64,000 bases of DNA from the NCBI RefSeq assembly GCF_001544475.1, contig NZ_FCNW02000009.1, positions 1 through 64,000 on the forward strand, written 5' to 3'. The first letter of the stretch is position 1. Each line of letters begins with the position of its first letter. Source of the DNA: Caballeronia humi. Its GTDB lineage: Bacteria > Pseudomonadota > Gammaproteobacteria > Burkholderiales > Burkholderiaceae. The notes beneath the pieces were generated by a model that was not told the DNA's origin, ran no database searches, and saw only the letters and a list, made by a program, of their open reading frames with translations. Of the stretch, positions 40,695 through 48,411 are shown piece by piece. The position numbers and the translations under genes are program-made.

Positions 40695-41285
40695 TTAGCG
40701 CGCCTTCGTCCGGCCGCTCTTCCTGGCGCTTCCCGCGCGAGGCGCGTCCTTGGCTGCCGGTACGCCGCCGTTCAACTGCTCCATCCACGACAGCGCATCG
40801 ACGTAGGAAAGAAACTGCTGCAAATACCCCGGCGACAGCTCGCGCATCAGCGAAAGCGACCGATGCACAAGGCTGCTCGAATTGAGCGGACCGGCGTTCC
40901 CCGGCACTTGCGCGAGCGATTGGCGCAACTGCCGCGCGGTGCTGACGCGCGACCAGGTTTCCCTGAAGTGATCGAGCGCCTCCAGTTCGGGATACGTGCT
41001 TGCGTCGTCCGAAACGTTGCTGGCGATGTAATCGACCAGTTCGGCGAGCGGTCCGCGAGTGGTTTCGATCGGCGGTGACGCTGCGCAATCGTTCTTGTCC
41101 AGATCGTCCGCATAGGCTTCGAGCAGCCCCGCAAGCCGCTCATCCAGAATCCGGCGCGCTTCGCCAACGTGACCGGCCGCGCGCCGTTCCAGCGCATCGA
41201 TAAAAAGAAACCGCACCGGATTCAGCCGATCGGCGCCGCGCTCGCGCCATGCATCGAGCATTTCCCGGGCGGTGCTCGTCGTCAT
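40695..41285 (-). CDS. DUF2894 protein, last gene of the MotAB-like operon
   Basis: A 196-residue soluble, mainly helical protein: AREMLDAWRERGADRLNPVRFLFIDALERRA near the start, SSLVHRSLSLMRELSPGYLQQFLSYVDALSWMEQL in the middle, and a basic alanine-rich tail. It lacks signal peptide and membrane segments. It matches what I know as DUF2894, a Burkholderia/Xanthomonas family of unknown role. Its start overlaps the OmpA-like stop by four bases (ATGA at 41282-41285). It is thus the terminal member of the four-gene unit and likely contacts the motor proteins, although this is only inferred. Confidence 0.8.
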   Translation of the reverse strand: MTTSTAREMLDAWRERGADRLNPVRFLFIDALERRAAGHVGEARRILDERLAGLLEAYADDLDKNDCAASPPIETTRGPLAELVDYIASNVSDDASTYPELEALDHFRETWSRVSTARQLRQSLAQVPGNAGPLNSSSLVHRSLSLMRELSPGYLQQFLSYVDALSWMEQLNGGVPAAKDAPRAGSARKSGRTKAR

Positions 41286-41926
41286 GACGCAGCCTTCGCG
41301 GTCGATGATGGCCTCGGCATCGGCGCCATCTCGACGCGGCGATTCTTCGCGCGCCCGGCGTCGTCGGCGTTCGAACTCACCGGCTGACCCGAGCCGAACG
41401 CCGCCGCGAATACCGACGAGGAGGGCACGCCTTCGTCGATCAGCGCGCGCGTCACCGTCAGCGCGCGCTGCGCGGACAATTCCCAGTTGTCGGCAAAGCG
41501 TCGATTGCCTTCGCGGACCTGCCGGTCATCGGTGAAGCCGCTCACCATCAAAATCTCTTCGCGAGCCCGCAGATACGCGGACAGCGGCCCCGCAAGGCTC
41601 TTCAGCAAGTCCCGTCCCTCGGGCCGCAACTGATCGGAATTCAGCGCGAAAAGCACGCTCCCGCTGATCCCGATGCGCCCGTTGACCAGCGTCACGCGCC
41701 CCGCCGCGAGCGGCCCGGCGAGCGCCTCTTCGAGCGTCTTGCGGCGCTGCGTCTCCGCCTGACGCTGCTTGACCTCCTGATCCAGCTTGCTCGACAGTTC
41801 GAGCTGCACGCCGATCACGCCCACCAGAATCAGCACGAACACACCCAGCAGCACGGACATCAAGTCGCCGAAGACGGGCCAGATCGGTGCGGCCGGCTCC
41901 ACGCCGCCGTCGATGTCTTCGCTCAT
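41282..41926 (-). CDS. MotB/OmpA-like membrane protein
   Basis: A 214-residue protein with one N-terminal membrane helix and an OmpA-type peptidoglycan-binding domain. The helix, about 17-42, carries an aspartate at its start (D21 in WPVFGDLMSVLLG). This is the place of the proton-carrying aspartate of MotB, ExbD-like and ZorB proteins. After a coiled segment (45-75) the OmpA fold runs from about 85 to 205 (VLFALNSDQLRPEGRDLL, VSGFTDD, NWELSAQRALTVTRALIDEGV, AKNRRVEM). Both starts and stops overlap neighbours by four bases. With the upstream MotA-like protein it forms a probable stator-type complex. Confidence 0.88.
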   Translation of the reverse strand: MSEDIDGGVEPAAPIWPVFGDLMSVLLGVFVLILVGVIGVQLELSSKLDQEVKQRQAETQRRKTLEEALAGPLAAGRVTLVNGRIGISGSVLFALNSDQLRPEGRDLLKSLAGPLSAYLRAREEILMVSGFTDDRQVREGNRRFADNWELSAQRALTVTRALIDEGVPSSSVFAAAFGSGQPVSSNADDAGRAKNRRVEMAPMPRPSSTAKAAS

Positions 41927-44415
41927 GCCGCTTCGGCTCCGGCGGACGCGCGCTGGCCGGCGAGCTGCTGCAATTCCTCGACGATCTGCTTTTGCGACAG
42001 CATGCTCAAGTCGATGACTTCCCGCGCCTGCGCGACGTAATAGGCAAGCTGCTCGTCGCTGCGGGCGAGCGACTTGTCGAGCGCGGTTTCGATGCGCTGC
42101 AGGTGCGCCGCGAGCTTGTCATTCGACGCGCCGAACACGTGCACGGCCGCGCCGAACGCTTCGCCAAGGCTCGCCACCTCGACGGCGCTGCCGGTCACTT
42201 GCGCGGCCACCGCACCGAGCTTGCCGGTTTCGGCCTCGACGTGATCGGTAAATCTGGTGCCGACGCGATCCAGCAGATCCGCCGACGTCGACACGAGCGC
42301 GTCGACAGCCGTGCGCTGCTCGGTGGACGCGTGGTTCACGGCATCGAGCAGGGTTTCGAGCGTGGCGAGCAGGCGGCTGCGTTCTTCGAGCATCGCGGTA
42401 TCGCGGACCATGCTGTCGGAGAGCTTCTGGCGCAATTCCGCGACGACTTCCGCCGCCGCGCGCGGCGCTTCCGACGCGGCCTGCACGAGCCGCGAGATCT
42501 CGCCGATGGTGTCGGCAGCGTGCGCTTTGGTTTGCGCGGTCATGTCGCGGGCGGTGCGTTCGAGCGTGTCGCAGATTTCCTGCTGACGGGCCGCGGCGTG
42601 CGTGCTGGTCGCCTGCCAGTCGGCGTGGAGTGCGGATGCCATCGATCCGAGCGATGCGGTCCATGCCGCGAGGCGCTCCTCGTCGCGCGACGCGAGTTCG
42701 GTGCGCAAGCCTGCGTGCGACTGGTTGAGCGCGCGCAACAGCGACTGCGAGTGCTGCTCGAAGGTTGCGGCGGCGGCCGACAGCGCTTTCTGGTTGTCGG
42801 CGGCGAGCGTTTCGCCGGCGCGTTCCTGTCGCGAGAGCGCTTCGTTCCACGCTGCCGAGACGCTGTCCGCCGTCGTGTCGAGGCGCGCGGCGACGTTGTC
42901 CAGCAGGCCGGCCGAGCGGTGTTCGAAGGTGCCGGTGAAGCCGTCGAGCGTGGTGCGCAGGTCTTGCGCGAGTGCTTCGCTCGATTGCTGGTGGCCGGCG
43001 AGCGCCTGCTTCCAGAGGTCGGCGAGAGTCGCGGTAGCCGATTCGAGACCGGTCGAAACACCGGCGAGTTGCCGCTCGACCGCGTTTGTGACGGTGTCGT
43101 GCAGCGTGGCCGTATCGCGCGCGATGCTTGTCATCGTCGATTCGATACCGGTCGTCAAATCGCTGAGTTGCCGCGCGACGGCGCTTGTGACTGTCTCGTG
43201 CAACGTGGCGGTATCACCTGCAATTTTGGTAACCGTCGATTCCAAACCGGTCGTCAGTCCGCCAAGTTGCCGCTCTACCGCGCTGGTAACCGTGTCGTGC
43301 AACGTAGCCGTGTCGCGTGTGATGTTCGCTAACGTCGATTCAAGGCCGGTCGTCAATCCGCCAAGTTGCCGCTCTACCGCGTTTGTAACCGTGTCGTGCA
43401 ACGTAGCCGTGTCGCGTGTGATGCTTGCTAACGTCGATTCGAGGCCGCTGGAAACCCCGCCGAGTTGTCGCTCCACCGCGTTCGTGACGGTGTCATGCAG
43501 CGTGGCTGTTTCCCGCGCGATGCCTGCCATCGTCGCCTCCATGACCGGCTGAAGCGCGGCCCCGGCGGCGCGCGCGCTTTCCGCGACGCTCCGTCTCAAC
43601 GACTGCTCGACCGACGACGCCAGCCGCGTATAGGCCGCTTCGGTCTTGCCGTGGAACGCGTCCTGGCTCGCGATCTGGCGCTCGTTCAGCGCGAGGCTCT
43701 GACGCTCGATGGCCGTCATCATCGATTGCAGCCGATCGACCAGGGTCGGCATCAGCTCGGACTGACGTTGCAGCAGCCGGAAAGCCTCGTCGCGCTGATG
43801 CGCCTGCGAGAAAACGCGCAAGGTCGTCGCGATCCTGACATCGAGCGTCTGCGCCGCCTCGATCCGCTCGCGCCGGAACAGCGCGGACAGCAACCCGAGC
43901 ATCGCCGACGTTGCGACGCCCGCGATCGACGTGCCGAACGCGAACCCCAGCCCCTTGACCGGCGCGGCGAGCGACGCGCGGATCGCCTGCAGATCGGAAG
44001 CGCTTTCGAGCGCCATGCCGGTGCCGCGCAGTGTCGCGACCATGCCGAGCAGCGTGCCGAGCATGCCGAGCAGCACCAGCAGACCGACTAGATACGGCGT
44101 CAGCGCCGGGCCGGGCAGAGCCACGCGCTCACCCTCGACGCGCAGCCGCACCGCATTGCGCAGGCTCGGGTGCAGCCGATCGAGCCAGCCGGCGATCCCC
44201 GGCGGCGGTCCGGCAAGGCCGCTTACAGCGCCCGACAGCGTGGCCGTGGCCTGGCTGTAGCGCCACAATTCGAGCGCGCCCGCGACGTAGCAGGCGCCGA
44301 TCAGCAGCGTGACGGCGAACGCCAGCGGGTTCGAGACGACGTAGCCGCCGCCGATCCAGCACACGGCGGCGAGGCCAGTCAAAAAGACGGCGAGATGAAT
44401 CGGATATCTGGACAT
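41923..44415 (-). CDS. DUF802 protein: MotA/TolQ-like proton channel with a long coiled-coil tail
   Basis: An 830-residue protein. Four membrane segments are visible at about 6-27, 31-50, 106-128 and 153-180. Segments three and four (GLLVLLGMLGTLLGMVATL, then GLGFAFGTSIAGVATSAMLG) have the glycine-rich, TolQ/ExbB/MotA channel pattern. From about 195 to 820 the protein is one long helical tail. It holds five tandem 33-residue repeats at 301-465, with the core TATLHDTVTNAVERQL, and later methyl-accepting-like heptads. The overall plan (short channel, very long tail) recalls ZorA of the Zorya defence system. The start is ATG 44415, 10 bases after the DUF3348 stop; longer frames upstream belong to other reading. 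The substrate-free role is inferred. Confidence 0.87.
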   Translation of the reverse strand: MSRYPIHLAVFLTGLAAVCWIGGGYVVSNPLAFAVTLLIGACYVAGALELWRYSQATATLSGAVSGLAGPPPGIAGWLDRLHPSLRNAVRLRVEGERVALPGPALTPYLVGLLVLLGMLGTLLGMVATLRGTGMALESASDLQAIRASLAAPVKGLGFAFGTSIAGVATSAMLGLLSALFRRERIEAAQTLDVRIATTLRVFSQAHQRDEAFRLLQRQSELMPTLVDRLQSMMTAIERQSLALNERQIASQDAFHGKTEAAYTRLASSVEQSLRRSVAESARAAGAALQPVMEATMAGIARETATLHDTVTNAVERQLGGVSSGLESTLASITRDTATLHDTVTNAVERQLGGLTTGLESTLANITRDTATLHDTVTSAVERQLGGLTTGLESTVTKIAGDTATLHETVTSAVARQLSDLTTGIESTMTSIARDTATLHDTVTNAVERQLAGVSTGLESATATLADLWKQALAGHQQSSEALAQDLRTTLDGFTGTFEHRSAGLLDNVAARLDTTADSVSAAWNEALSRQERAGETLAADNQKALSAAAATFEQHSQSLLRALNQSHAGLRTELASRDEERLAAWTASLGSMASALHADWQATSTHAAARQQEICDTLERTARDMTAQTKAHAADTIGEISRLVQAASEAPRAAAEVVAELRQKLSDSMVRDTAMLEERSRLLATLETLLDAVNHASTEQRTAVDALVSTSADLLDRVGTRFTDHVEAETGKLGAVAAQVTGSAVEVASLGEAFGAAVHVFGASNDKLAAHLQRIETALDKSLARSDEQLAYYVAQAREVIDLSMLSQKQIVEELQQLAGQRASAGAEAA
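43021..43515 (-). repeat. Five tandem 99-base repeats coding 33-residue coiled-coil units
   Basis: Five adjacent units of 99 bases inside the DUF802 gene (protein residues 301-465). Units share the words TATLHDTVT.AVERQL and GLEST. The DNA repeats are similar but not identical (AACGTAGCCGTGTCGCGTGTG recurs almost unchanged in units two and three). Thirty-three residues equal three 11-residue turns, the period of a right-handed (hendecad) coiled coil. Copy number may vary between strains. Confidence 0.85.
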
Positions 44416-44425
44416 GGCGTCCCGG

Positions 44426-45124
44426 TTAGCGGGCCTGAAGGGCGGCGAGCAACCCTTCGACCGGTTGAAAACGAATGTCGAGTTCGGCCAGCATGACGCT
44501 CTGCAGGTCCTTGCGGAACACGTCGAGCCATGCGCCGGGCGTGTCGTGCTGGGCGTCGTTCGCGGCGAGCGTCGCCTGCTCGGCCCGACGCAGGCGCTCG
44601 AAATGGCCGCCGAGCAGCACGGGCACCGTCGCGAACAGGCTGCGTTCGCGTGCGGAGAGCGACTGCTCCATGACGGCATCCACCATCGCGAGCCGGGTCA
44701 TGGCGGGCGACCTCGTGGCGAGCATCGCCCGCAGACGGGCCCGCACTGTGCCGGTCGACGTTTCCATCGTCTGTTGAAGCGAGAGACAGCGCTGGCGGAA
44801 AAAAGCGTAATCGACTGATGTTTCCTGCGCATCATTGCGGCGCTTGACGCTAAATGCGCTGTCGCCGGCGATCGCTTTCGCCAGAGACGCGCGCACGCGG
44901 GCGCATTCGTCCCCTTCAGCGTGAGCGCCTGATCGCGCGCCCGGGGCGGCGGGCGGATTGGCGGTCAGCGCGGTCGAGAGGGCGATCGCGTCGGTCCAGC
45001 CGAGCCATTGGCTCAGCCGGTCCGAGAGCGATAGTCTGGATTCGGGAACGTCGACGTCCGTCAGGCGCGTCAACAAGCGAATGAGCGTCGGGCCGCTGAA
45101 AGCTGTGCGCTGGGAGGCTTGCAC
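44426..45124 (-). CDS. DUF3348 protein, first gene of the MotAB-like operon
   Basis: A 232-residue soluble protein from GTG 45124 (MQASQRTAFSGPTLIRLLTRLTDVD). It is helical, with VRASLAKAIAGDSAF, a long middle helix LSLQQTMETSTGTVRARLRAML and the ending ELDIRFQPVEGLLAALQAR. It resembles DUF3348, known from Burkholderia next to DUF802 genes. No catalytic motif is seen. The ribosome site is weak, but no other in-frame start is better. It leads the four-gene unit, with 10 bases to the next start. Confidence 0.8.
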   Translation of the reverse strand: MQASQRTAFSGPTLIRLLTRLTDVDVPESRLSLSDRLSQWLGWTDAIALSTALTANPPAAPGARSGAHAEGDECARVRASLAKAIAGDSAFSVKRRNDAQETSVDYAFFRQRCLSLQQTMETSTGTVRARLRAMLATRSPAMTRLAMVDAVMEQSLSARERSLFATVPVLLGGHFERLRRAEQATLAANDAQHDTPGAWLDVFRKDLQSVMLAELDIRFQPVEGLLAALQAR

Positions 45125-45344: not shown

Positions 45345-45947
45345 ATGCGCACGAGAAGGGTCAGCCACGCGCGGCGCGCGTTTCTCCGCCAGTCGGGCGC
45401 GGTCCCGCCGACGCTGCTCCTGCTCGCGTTCGGCCGGCCCGGCACCAGCCGCGCCGCCACTGTTCTCCCGACGCCCGCCTGCGCTGGCGATCACGAATCG
45501 ACTCCGCGTCAGACCGCCGGCCCGTTCTTCCTGCCGCGCTCGCCGGAGCGCGCGTCGTTGCTGGGGCCGGGGATCGGCGGGACGCGGATCGTCGTGACGG
45601 GGCGGGTGATGTCGACGCGCTGCCAGCCCGTGCCGGGCGCGCTGCTCGACTTCTGGCACGCCGACGACGCCGGCGACTACGACGTCCACGGCTATCGCCT
45701 GCGCGGCCACCAGTTCGCCGACAGCGACGGGCGCTATCGGCTGGAAACTATCGTGCCGGGCGTGTATCCGGGACGCACGCGGCATTTTCACGTCACGGTG
45801 CAGGCGCCGAACGGCCGGCCGCTCACGACCCAGATGTACTTCCCCGGCGAGCGGCAGAACGCGCAGGATTCGCTGTACGACAGGCGGCTCTTGCTGACGA
45901 TCGATGGCGACGCTCACGCCGCGCGTTTCGATTTCGTGCTGGCCTGA
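45345..45947 (+). CDS. Exported intradiol ring-cleavage dioxygenase-like protein
   Basis: A 200-residue protein with a Tat-like signal (ARRAFLR at 9-15, hydrophobic to about 37). It holds the four ligands of intradiol Fe(III) dioxygenases: Y112 in AGDYDVHGY, Y141 in GVYPGRTRHFHV, and H147 and H149. PGALLDFWHAD at 97-107 is also typical. It is shorter than catechol dioxygenases, lacking their N-terminal dimerisation helices, like other exported members of unknown substrate. ATG 45345 has AAGGAG. It lies just before the ECF41 sigma gene with 7 bases between, so they share a transcript. Confidence 0.85.
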   Translation: MRTRRVSHARRAFLRQSGAVPPTLLLLAFGRPGTSRAATVLPTPACAGDHESTPRQTAGPFFLPRSPERASLLGPGIGGTRIVVTGRVMSTRCQPVPGALLDFWHADDAGDYDVHGYRLRGHQFADSDGRYRLETIVPGVYPGRTRHFHVTVQAPNGRPLTTQMYFPGERQNAQDSLYDRRLLLTIDGDAHAARFDFVLA

Positions 45948-45954
45948 ACCGCCG

Positions 45955-46836
45955 ATGGACGACGCCACCCGCATCTTCGACCGACTGCGCCGCCGCTTGC
46001 AGGGCATCGCGTACCGGATGCTGGGTTCGGTCGCGGAGGCCGAGGACGTCGTGCAGGACGTCTGGCTGCGCTGGCACGCGGCGGCGCGCGAGACGATCGA
46101 GAACGCCGAGGCGTGGCTCGTCTCGGTCACGACGCGGCTCTCGATCGACCGCCTGCGCGCCGCGCGCGTGCAGCGCGAGCAGTACGTGGGCATCTGGCTG
46201 CCGGAGCCCGAACTCACCGATTCGCCCGACACACCCGAGCAGGTCACCGAGCGCGCGGACGACGTCTCCGTCGCGTTCCTGATGCTGCTCGAACGCCTGA
46301 GCCCTGAGGCGCGCGCGGCGTTTCTGCTGCGCGAAGTCTTCGACGCTGACTACGGCGAAGTCGCGAACGCCGTCGGCAAGAGCGAAGCGGCGTGCCGCCA
46401 GCTCGTCAGCCGCGCGAAGGCGCAATTGCGAGACGATCGGCCGCGTTTCGCGGTGTCGCGCGAGATTCATTTGCGGCTGTTGAAGGTGTTCGCGCAGGCG
46501 CTTGCGCTCGGCGATTTCGCGGCGATCAGTTCGATGCTGGCCGACGATGCGATGCTCATCGGCGATGGCGGTGGACGCGTGCCGAGCTTTCCGAAACCGA
46601 TGGTCGGCGGGCGGCGTATCGCGCAGCTTTTTTATGCCGCGAACCTGCAGTATGGGGATGCGCAACGGGTGGAGCTCGCGCTGCTCAATGGACAGTGGGC
46701 GCTGCTGCGGTTTATCGACGGGGAGCTGGAGTCCGCGCAGTCGTATGAGACCGATGGCGAGCGGATCGTGCGGATTCATGTGCAGCGCAATCCGGCGAAG
46801 CTGGCGCGATTGGCGGCGGTGTTCGGGAAGGGGTGA
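45955..46836 (+). CDS. ECF41-type RNA polymerase sigma factor with fused SnoaL-like domain
   Basis: A 293-residue extracytoplasmic-function sigma factor. Region 2 (about 5-72) and region 4 (about 108-160: LSPEARAAFLLREVFDADYGEVANAVG) are followed by a SnoaL-like domain (170-293). Three ECF41 marks are seen: WLPEP in the linker (81-85), DGGGR at 204-208, and NPAKL near the end. In this group the fused domain takes the place of an anti-sigma factor. ECF41 genes usually sit by a carboxymuconolactone-decarboxylase, oxidoreductase or epimerase gene. Such a gene occurs at 48528, but a 1.5 kb insert lies between. ATG 45955 is the likely start; the frame opens earlier at 45904. Confidence 0.9.
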   Translation: MDDATRIFDRLRRRLQGIAYRMLGSVAEAEDVVQDVWLRWHAAARETIENAEAWLVSVTTRLSIDRLRAARVQREQYVGIWLPEPELTDSPDTPEQVTERADDVSVAFLMLLERLSPEARAAFLLREVFDADYGEVANAVGKSEAACRQLVSRAKAQLRDDRPRFAVSREIHLRLLKVFAQALALGDFAAISSMLADDAMLIGDGGGRVPSFPKPMVGGRRIAQLFYAANLQYGDAQRVELALLNGQWALLRFIDGELESAQSYETDGERIVRIHVQRNPAKLARLAAVFGKG

Positions 46837-47132: not shown

Positions 47133-47432
47133 TTAATCGGTGGGCGCGGCTGGAGGGGTTCGATCGGACGGCGATACCGGTTGCTCGGTAAAGGATATGA
47201 ACGGCTTGAGTTCCGGCTGGTAGTTCGCGAGCAAACTCAGAACTGCGCCACCAAAGCGCCGGGCAAATTCATCATCGATCTGGTAATCAAAGTCGTCGAG
47301 CAGGACTGGGATATCCAGCTTGCCCGCGCACAAAGGCTGAATCTGGTCGTCAGCAACGGTGTTACAGATCAACATTTTCCGCGCGTCGTCGTAACGCACC
47401 ACAACTGAACTCGGTGTTCTCTGTCTGCTCAT
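47133..47432 (-). CDS. Probable immunity protein paired with the upstream effector-like gene
   Basis: A 99-residue soluble protein starting at ATG 47432, which overlaps the stop of the preceding gene by four bases (ATGA). It begins SRQRTPSSVVVRYDDARKML and has an acidic middle (IPVLLDDFDYQIDDEFARRF). Small acidic proteins coupled to the end of an effector gene are typical cognate immunity proteins, but I cannot assign the family. Base composition is lower in G+C than the neighbouring genes, a sign of acquisition. Confidence 0.55.
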   Translation of the reverse strand: MSRQRTPSSVVVRYDDARKMLICNTVADDQIQPLCAGKLDIPVLLDDFDYQIDDEFARRFGGAVLSLLANYQPELKPFISFTEQPVSPSDRTPPAAPTD

Positions 47433-48298
47433 ATCGGCCTTGTGTATCCCATGCAAATGTTATATCGATGCCGTGCGTTTTCGAGGCACATCGCGATGCG
47501 CGCTGAACCGCCCATCATACGACCGAACGTTTGGCAATCGTCGTGATCCTGCTCCCATTCCGCCAGGCACCGCGCTTGTTCTGCTGGGGAAATGGCAATG
47601 TCCTCGACCGCGTTCGATACATCATCCGACAGCGTACCCTCACCCAACTCGAACGACGCTGCCTCGCCGAGCGGCGTCGTCACCGCGCGGTCTTCGCCCC
47701 ACTTCGAGAGCCCCTCAGGCAAACCGTACTTGCTGATCCATCCCGCGCGCGCGAATAACGGCAACATGCCGAGGGGGTCTCTCAGCACCGCCGCGTGCAT
47801 GAACTTCTCGTTGATGCTGTCGTTCATCGCTGCGATTTCTTCCCAGGGCGTCGCACTGGCTTCCCACTCCGCTAGCTGCGCCTGATACCGTTCCTGCACG
47901 CTTGCATAGCGAGGCGGGTCGTAGTCCTCGACACCCCAGAACGACGACGATCCAGCCTGCTTCGACGCACCCGCAACGCCGGCAACCAGCGGTTTCTCAG
48001 GGATCACGACGACACTGCCGCCACGCACCATATCCATCAGCATTTGCACGACGTCAAGATCGGTGCCGCAGTTGGCCAGACGCTCGTGCCAGTGGAAATT
48101 CTCTTTAAGGAAGGCGCGCGCCCGGCTGGCTAGTCCCGCGTCCCTGGCCCACACATCCGCATAAGCCGATGCCGTGAACTTCTTGCCCGCTTCGACTGCG
48201 TTCCGCCGCTCGTCATCGGGGGCGAAGGGCATGTATCGGTCGCTGTTCCGGTACAGCACGTAGCGGTGCCACGAGTCCGTCTTGAGTTCTGTCGCCAT
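47429..48298 (-). CDS. Effector/polymorphic-toxin-like protein of unknown activity
   Basis: A 289-residue protein from ATG 48298 (MATELKTDSWHRY); a TTG at 48349 would add 17 residues. It has no signal peptide. The last 45 residues follow the pattern C-x3-W-x2-D-x3-C ... C-x3-A-x2-RY-x2-C (ending NICMGYTRPI). Such a cysteine-rich end is frequent in Proteobacterial type VI and Rhs-linked effectors. The earlier part (GGSVVVIPEKPLVAGVAG, then FWGVEDYDPPRYASVQERY) is unknown to me. Next to it a small coupled gene looks like an immunity partner. No VgrG, PAAR or Rhs core is nearby. Assignment as effector is inference. Confidence 0.5.
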   Translation of the reverse strand: MATELKTDSWHRYVLYRNSDRYMPFAPDDERRNAVEAGKKFTASAYADVWARDAGLASRARAFLKENFHWHERLANCGTDLDVVQMLMDMVRGGSVVVIPEKPLVAGVAGASKQAGSSSFWGVEDYDPPRYASVQERYQAQLAEWEASATPWEEIAAMNDSINEKFMHAAVLRDPLGMLPLFARAGWISKYGLPEGLSKWGEDRAVTTPLGEAASFELGEGTLSDDVSNAVEDIAISPAEQARCLAEWEQDHDDCQTFGRMMGGSARIAMCLENARHRYNICMGYTRPI

Positions 48299-48411
48299 CC
48301 AGTCTCGCTCAAAGAACGCCCCGAAGGGCAGCGAATGTGCGACGTTCAAGGAGCGTCGCGCGAAGAATGACGGCTACGTTACCGAGGGAGGGCAGCGGCA
48401 AATATCAGATT

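Follow-up and report, generated by a model that had tools for sequence, protein, structure and literature searches.

The window analyzed here, meaning the whole stretch of 64,000 nt of Caballeronia humi DNA, contains a four-gene operon on the minus strand (40695-45124) in the transcription order DUF3348 gene, zorA-like gene (with DUF802), zorB-like gene and DUF2894 gene. The DUF3348 gene and zorA are separated by a gap of 10 nt, and two 4-nt ATGA overlaps connect zorA to zorB (41923-41926) and zorB to the DUF2894 gene (41282-41285). The initial annotation had described four minus-strand genes joined by two such overlaps, and all four open reading frames are present at these coordinates. The individual features are as follows:

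44426-45124, minus strand: DUF3348 protein (ZorG3 in PADLOC-DB), 232 aa, soluble, all-helical, GTG start; PADLOC PDLC00656 (E=1.5e-98), Pfam PF11828 (E=4.1e-90)
41923-44415, minus strand: ZorA type III, 830 aa, MotA/TolQ-like N-terminus, about 4 TM helices and a coiled-coil tail of ~600 residues; PADLOC PDLC00650 (1352 bits)
43039-43535, minus strand: 99-nt tandem repeat in the zorA tail (TRF period 99, 5.0 copies), each unit of which codes for 33 residues (3 x 11) of coiled coil
42901-43059 and 42736-42894 (span 42736-43059), minus strand: two DUF802 domains of the ZorA tail (PF05650 matches)
41923-42465, minus strand: distal ZorA tail, residues from ~651, with conserved blocks in the identity profile; putative docking site
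41282-41926, minus strand: ZorB type III, 214 aa, one TM helix, D21, OmpA peptidoglycan domain; PADLOC PDLC00651 (E=4.7e-119), PF00691 (E=2.9e-18)
40695-41285, minus strand: DUF2894 protein (ZorF3 in PADLOC-DB), 196 aa, all-helical, basic C-terminal tail; PADLOC PDLC00652 (E=3.3e-84), PF11445 (E=3.3e-60)

Hydropathy analysis places the TM segments of ZorA at residues ~9-27, 30-48, 109-127 and 162-180 and the single TM segment of ZorB at ~22-40, and it detects none in the DUF3348 and DUF2894 proteins. Together with the Pfam matches above cut-off (DUF802 in two stretches, OmpA, DUF2894 and DUF3348), this agrees with the protein features that had been read from the letters alone, i.e. a four-helix, long-tailed ZorA, a one-helix, OmpA-bearing ZorB and two soluble partners.

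Zorya type III was defined with exactly these four families, in which zorAB is flanked by DUF3348 and DUF2894 genes, and the type III operon of Stenotrophomonas nitritireducens reduced phage plaquing in E. coli BL21-AI (Payne et al., 2021; PMC8565338). The PADLOC profiles for this type match the four operon proteins with 1352 (ZorA3), 394 (ZorB3), 281 (ZorF3) and 328 bits (ZorG3) and E-values from 3e-84 to 0, which puts the four-gene set far beyond chance; since the sequences behind these profiles are probably those of close relatives, the high scores are evidence of family and not of function. The defining features are all found in the window: a ZorA with a MotA/ExbB/TolQ domain and a long cytoplasmic tail (PDLC00650, TM segments, tail periodicity of 3.665), a ZorB with a TM helix, an acidic residue (D21) and an OmpA-like domain above cut-off, and DUF3348 and DUF2894 genes on either side of zorAB. 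The PADLOC profiles for ZorC, ZorD and ZorE, which would indicate type I or II, have no match among the operon proteins and six tested neighbours. MotB-family NCBIfam models, which would point to MotAB, TolQR or ExbBD, score far below their own cut-offs, and the sole model passed in this test is PRK09040, named hypothetical protein. Judged by its sequences, the four-gene set is an already described system, Zorya type III. The initial annotation correctly proposed an ion motor of the MotA/MotB type, made of a long-tailed ZorA and a ZorB that bears an OmpA domain, and correctly linked it to Zorya. Its description of the two partners as uncharacterised does not hold, as DUF3348 and DUF2894 have been named members of Zorya type III since 2021 (PMC8565338). 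The names themselves are a source of annotation confusion: ZorF is DUF3348 and ZorG is DUF2894 in the text of the defining study (PMC8565338), and PADLOC-DB v2 swaps them (ZorF3 for DUF2894, ZorG3 for DUF3348).

The motor part of the system can be compared with a solved structure. A profile of ZorA residues 1-240, searched against the whole PDB, yields a single significant match, ZorA of type I (8VVN, E=1e-4). In this alignment, T121, T162 and S163 of the window ZorA fall on the T/T/S of type I, and none of these three residues varies across 27 sequences with identities as low as 41%. ZorB matches 8VVN at residues 9-160 against 12-172, and this offset of 3 fits a pairing of D21 with D24, the aspartate that is critical in type I; the aligned position is an aspartate in 61 of 61 ZorB sequences. 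The ZorA5B2 (5:2) assembly has been solved for Zorya types I and II (PMC11890865); type III might use sodium as type I does.

The ZorA tail differs in length between lineages. Among 59 family sequences, ZorA ranges from 643 to 1046 aa, and a distant relative has a ZorA of 555 aa. The hydrophobic period of every tail examined lies between 3.645 and 3.685 (3.665 in the window), close to 11/3 and not to the heptad value of 3.5, which according to coiled-coil theory predicts a straight or right-handed bundle. The length variation arises from lineage-specific tandem repeats, whose unit is 33 aa in the window (five copies), 80 aa in most of one genus, 87 aa in others and 69, 62 or 29 aa elsewhere. 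A rule by which tail lengths change in multiples of 11 was dropped, because pairwise ZorA indels are not clean multiples of 11 and the units are 29, 33, 62, 69, 80 and 87 aa; a helical periodicity near 3.66 is preferred over this strict idea. The ZorA of a sister genome (G081, locus L008) is 797 aa long, compared with 830 aa in the window, and the two are one 33-aa (99-nt) repeat apart, so that the 99-nt unit may act as a variable-number repeat between strains. Mean identity to the window ZorA is 0.49 at residues 571-610 and reaches 0.86 at 651-690 and 0.90 at 771-810, which makes the conserved blocks of the distal tail a likely docking site. In types I and II, component size is well conserved within each type (PMC11890865), whereas type III ZorA varies 1.6-fold in the family sample, and the variability of the tail is thus a real difference between type III and the other two types.

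For the two partner proteins, the searches return few leads. The AlphaFold2 model of DUF3348 (pLDDT 85.8) consists entirely of helices, with two long C-terminal ones, and the predicted DUF2894 structure is helical at lower confidence (pLDDT 78.0, pTM 0.48). The last 25 residues of DUF2894 carry a net charge between +2 and +8 in 61 sequences. Foldseek with both models gives no match below E 0.1, and the best VIA-align Z-scores (7.3 for DUF3348, 7.7 for DUF2894) lie inside the range that the tool itself flags for helical bundles. The DUF3348 rows for the vinculin tail, Mx/dynamin stalks and 11S activators are not taken as evidence of homology. Sequence-profile searches of the PDB give no match for DUF3348 and only non-significant rows for DUF2894 (PscE, E=0.03). 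Overall, PADLOC and Pfam recognise neither a nuclease nor a helicase nor any further enzyme domain in the four operon proteins, and the fold searches with the two partners yield no trusted match; the lack of a recognised match is not proof against enzymatic activity.

The distribution of the operon was surveyed in 200 Burkholderiaceae genomes, counting strong hits for ZorB3. An identical set of 133 genomes carries ZorB3, DUF3348 and DUF2894, with one strong copy each, and the operon is single-copy and all-or-nothing within the family. Independent occurrence of the genes, which the initial annotation had proposed to look for in a genome-wide survey, was not found. Carriage depends on genome size: 129 of 144 family genomes of at least 4 Mb (90%) contain the operon, compared with 4 of 56 below 4 Mb. 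The remaining 15 large genomes do not carry it. Within the genus of the window, it is missing from three genomes of 2.8-4.2 Mb. In a 6.2 Mb genome of the same genus (G173; L021, 6630-11011) the operon is decayed, with DUF3348 in two frames, a ZorA frame that stops at 361 aa and a ZorB split near residue 148. Outside the family, DUF3348 was detected in 3 of 116 genomes of the order sample, one of them below cut-off, and in 6 of 273 other genomes of the class sample. Of 61 Burkholderiaceae loci, 60 keep the same four-gene order, the decayed copy included, and a contig end truncates the remaining one; the order is also kept in all seven distant loci examined. For type I, the model NF033914 exceeds its cut-off in 0 of 200 family genomes, and it also matched no control genome. 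As Zorya I has been reported from B. cenocepacia K56-2 (PMC12584637), the zero count is not read as absence of type I.

Flanking genes are shared within sub-lineages (one branch of the genus, for example, has genes for transketolase and dehydrogenase on the downstream side) and different between lineages. The six window neighbours tested are metabolic, sigma factor or unknown genes, and none of them is a flagellar, Tol or Ton gene. Two further observations concern this region: at 45345-46836, the ORF of a small intradiol-dioxygenase-domain protein shares 44 nt with the ORF of an ECF-type sigma factor (45904-46836), and a 306-aa ORF at 47429-48349 has no match in Pfam or PADLOC at E 1e-5. As for a location in a defence island, which had been suggested for survey, 0 of 6 window neighbours is a PADLOC defence gene, and the flanks vary between lineages.

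Gene trees provide a second view on inheritance. The RpoB and MutS trees recover genera g1, g11 and g25 as monophyletic, the operon tree does not, and genome pairs at an RpoB distance of 0.009 reach operon distances of 0.31-0.38. Forcing the operon alignment onto the MutS topology, with MutS on 24 genomes as the control, leads to rejection of this topology (delta lnL 234, AU p 0.004, 1000 replicates); MutS was used here because one taxon of the RpoB control (L046) looks aberrant, probably due to a wrong ORF. The species controls are single genes and deep distances may be inflated by fast evolution, and the broken genus clades are stronger evidence for exchange than these distances. The distance matrices of the four operon proteins correlate at 0.51-0.70, which is compatible with, and not proof of, mostly joint movement of the four genes. 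The operon is persistent without being strictly vertical and looks like a repeatedly exchanged accessory operon. The initial annotation had described the gene set as common across Burkholderia and took this to favour an envelope role. The first part agrees with the survey; the step from common to housekeeping is weakened by the different flanks, the broken genus clades, the rejected MutS topology and the losses.

The locus is very probably a complete Zorya type III anti-phage operon, in which an ion motor would most likely transmit its action via the tail to the DUF3348 and DUF2894 proteins. This reading builds on direct observations of gene content, sequence homology, conserved residues, tail periodicity and all-or-nothing inheritance. 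By analogy with the published types I and II, ZorA and ZorB would most likely form a 5:2 motor in the inner membrane that requires ion flow and the tail, and ZorB would be anchored to peptidoglycan, where it may sense, or be engaged by, envelope disturbance during phage entry. Ion flow past D21 of ZorB and the T121/T162/S163 ring would turn ZorA, and the motion or a conformational signal could travel along the coiled coil as far as the conserved distal part of the tail. DUF3348 and DUF2894 may dock at the tail tip and, once activated or set free there, could act against the incoming phage. Protection by the window copy is presumed from that of another type III copy. In the study of B. cenocepacia K56-2 cited above, the first one or two Zorya III genes change expression upon infection with phage Bcep176 (PMC12584637), and this fits a phage-related role.

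A variant of this explanation assumes a dual-use core system, i.e. a sensor of envelope damage that serves the general stress response and also blocks phage entry. It overlaps with the anti-phage reading, as defence would be real and not the sole job, and it would account for near-universal carriage together with horizontal exchange; the peptidoglycan-binding domain on ZorB also suits such a sensor. We nevertheless consider it unlikely. Even less probable is a housekeeping envelope motor of large-genome Burkholderiaceae, Tol-Pal-like or involved in wall tension, for which phage protection would be a side effect of over-expression. Here, the counterpoints to defence have to be weighed: a single copy in 129 of 144 large family genomes is unusual for a defence system, the window flanks are ordinary metabolic genes with no PADLOC match in six neighbours, the operon has, unlike types I and II, no recognisable nuclease, helicase or other nucleic-acid enzyme, and the published type III protection is that of one operon in a foreign host (PMC8565338). 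However, E. coli was protected by that operon, the system is rare outside the family, its neighbourhoods differ by lineage, 15 of 144 large genomes do without it and one holds a broken copy, and the operon tree splits genera that are monophyletic for RpoB and MutS. Finally, a flagellar stator or ExbBD/TolQR paralogue, with which the operon has the MotA/TolQ core and the OmpA domain in common, is scarcely credible in view of the ~600-residue tail, the obligate DUF3348/DUF2894 partners, the best solved match to ZorA type I and not to MotA, TolQ or ExbB, and the six tested neighbours, none of which is a flagellar or Tol gene.

Within the anti-phage reading, we tentatively propose a more specific and rather speculative picture: a near-core, horizontally refreshed immune motor of Burkholderiaceae without a nuclease or helicase of its own, whose output through two helical partners at the tail tip could be mechanical, electrical or executed by a host enzyme, and whose tail length might be tuned by tandem duplication of whole helical units. 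Types I and II have DNA-acting parts, which raises the question of how type III stops phages without a recognisable one. The natural series of tail lengths in otherwise similar proteins (643-1046 aa across the family sample, with 555 aa in a distant relative) could be used to ask if the tail serves as a ruler, as a spring or as a mere tether. Moreover, a defence operon that is near-universal in one family yet still exchanged bears on the practice of telling core function from defence by prevalence alone.

In comparison with known systems, the window operon has the 5:2-type ion motor core in common, by homology, with the MotAB flagellar stator, TolQR and ExbBD, as well as the OmpA domain on the MotB-like subunit, and differs in its long cytoplasmic tail, its obligate partners and tested neighbours without flagellar, Tol or Ton genes. 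It resembles Zorya types I (ZorABCD) and II (ZorABE) in the long-tailed, MotA-like ZorA and in a ZorB with a TM aspartate and an OmpA domain (PMC11890865); in place of ZorC, ZorD and ZorE, it has all-helical partners with no recognised enzyme domain. The described type III (PMC8565338) has the same four families in the same arrangement, and nothing in the window operon differs in kind. Beyond what is known of Zorya III, the present analysis adds near-universal, all-or-nothing carriage combined with horizontal exchange and the modular nature of the ZorA tail, which in the window copy is marked by a 33-residue tandem expansion.
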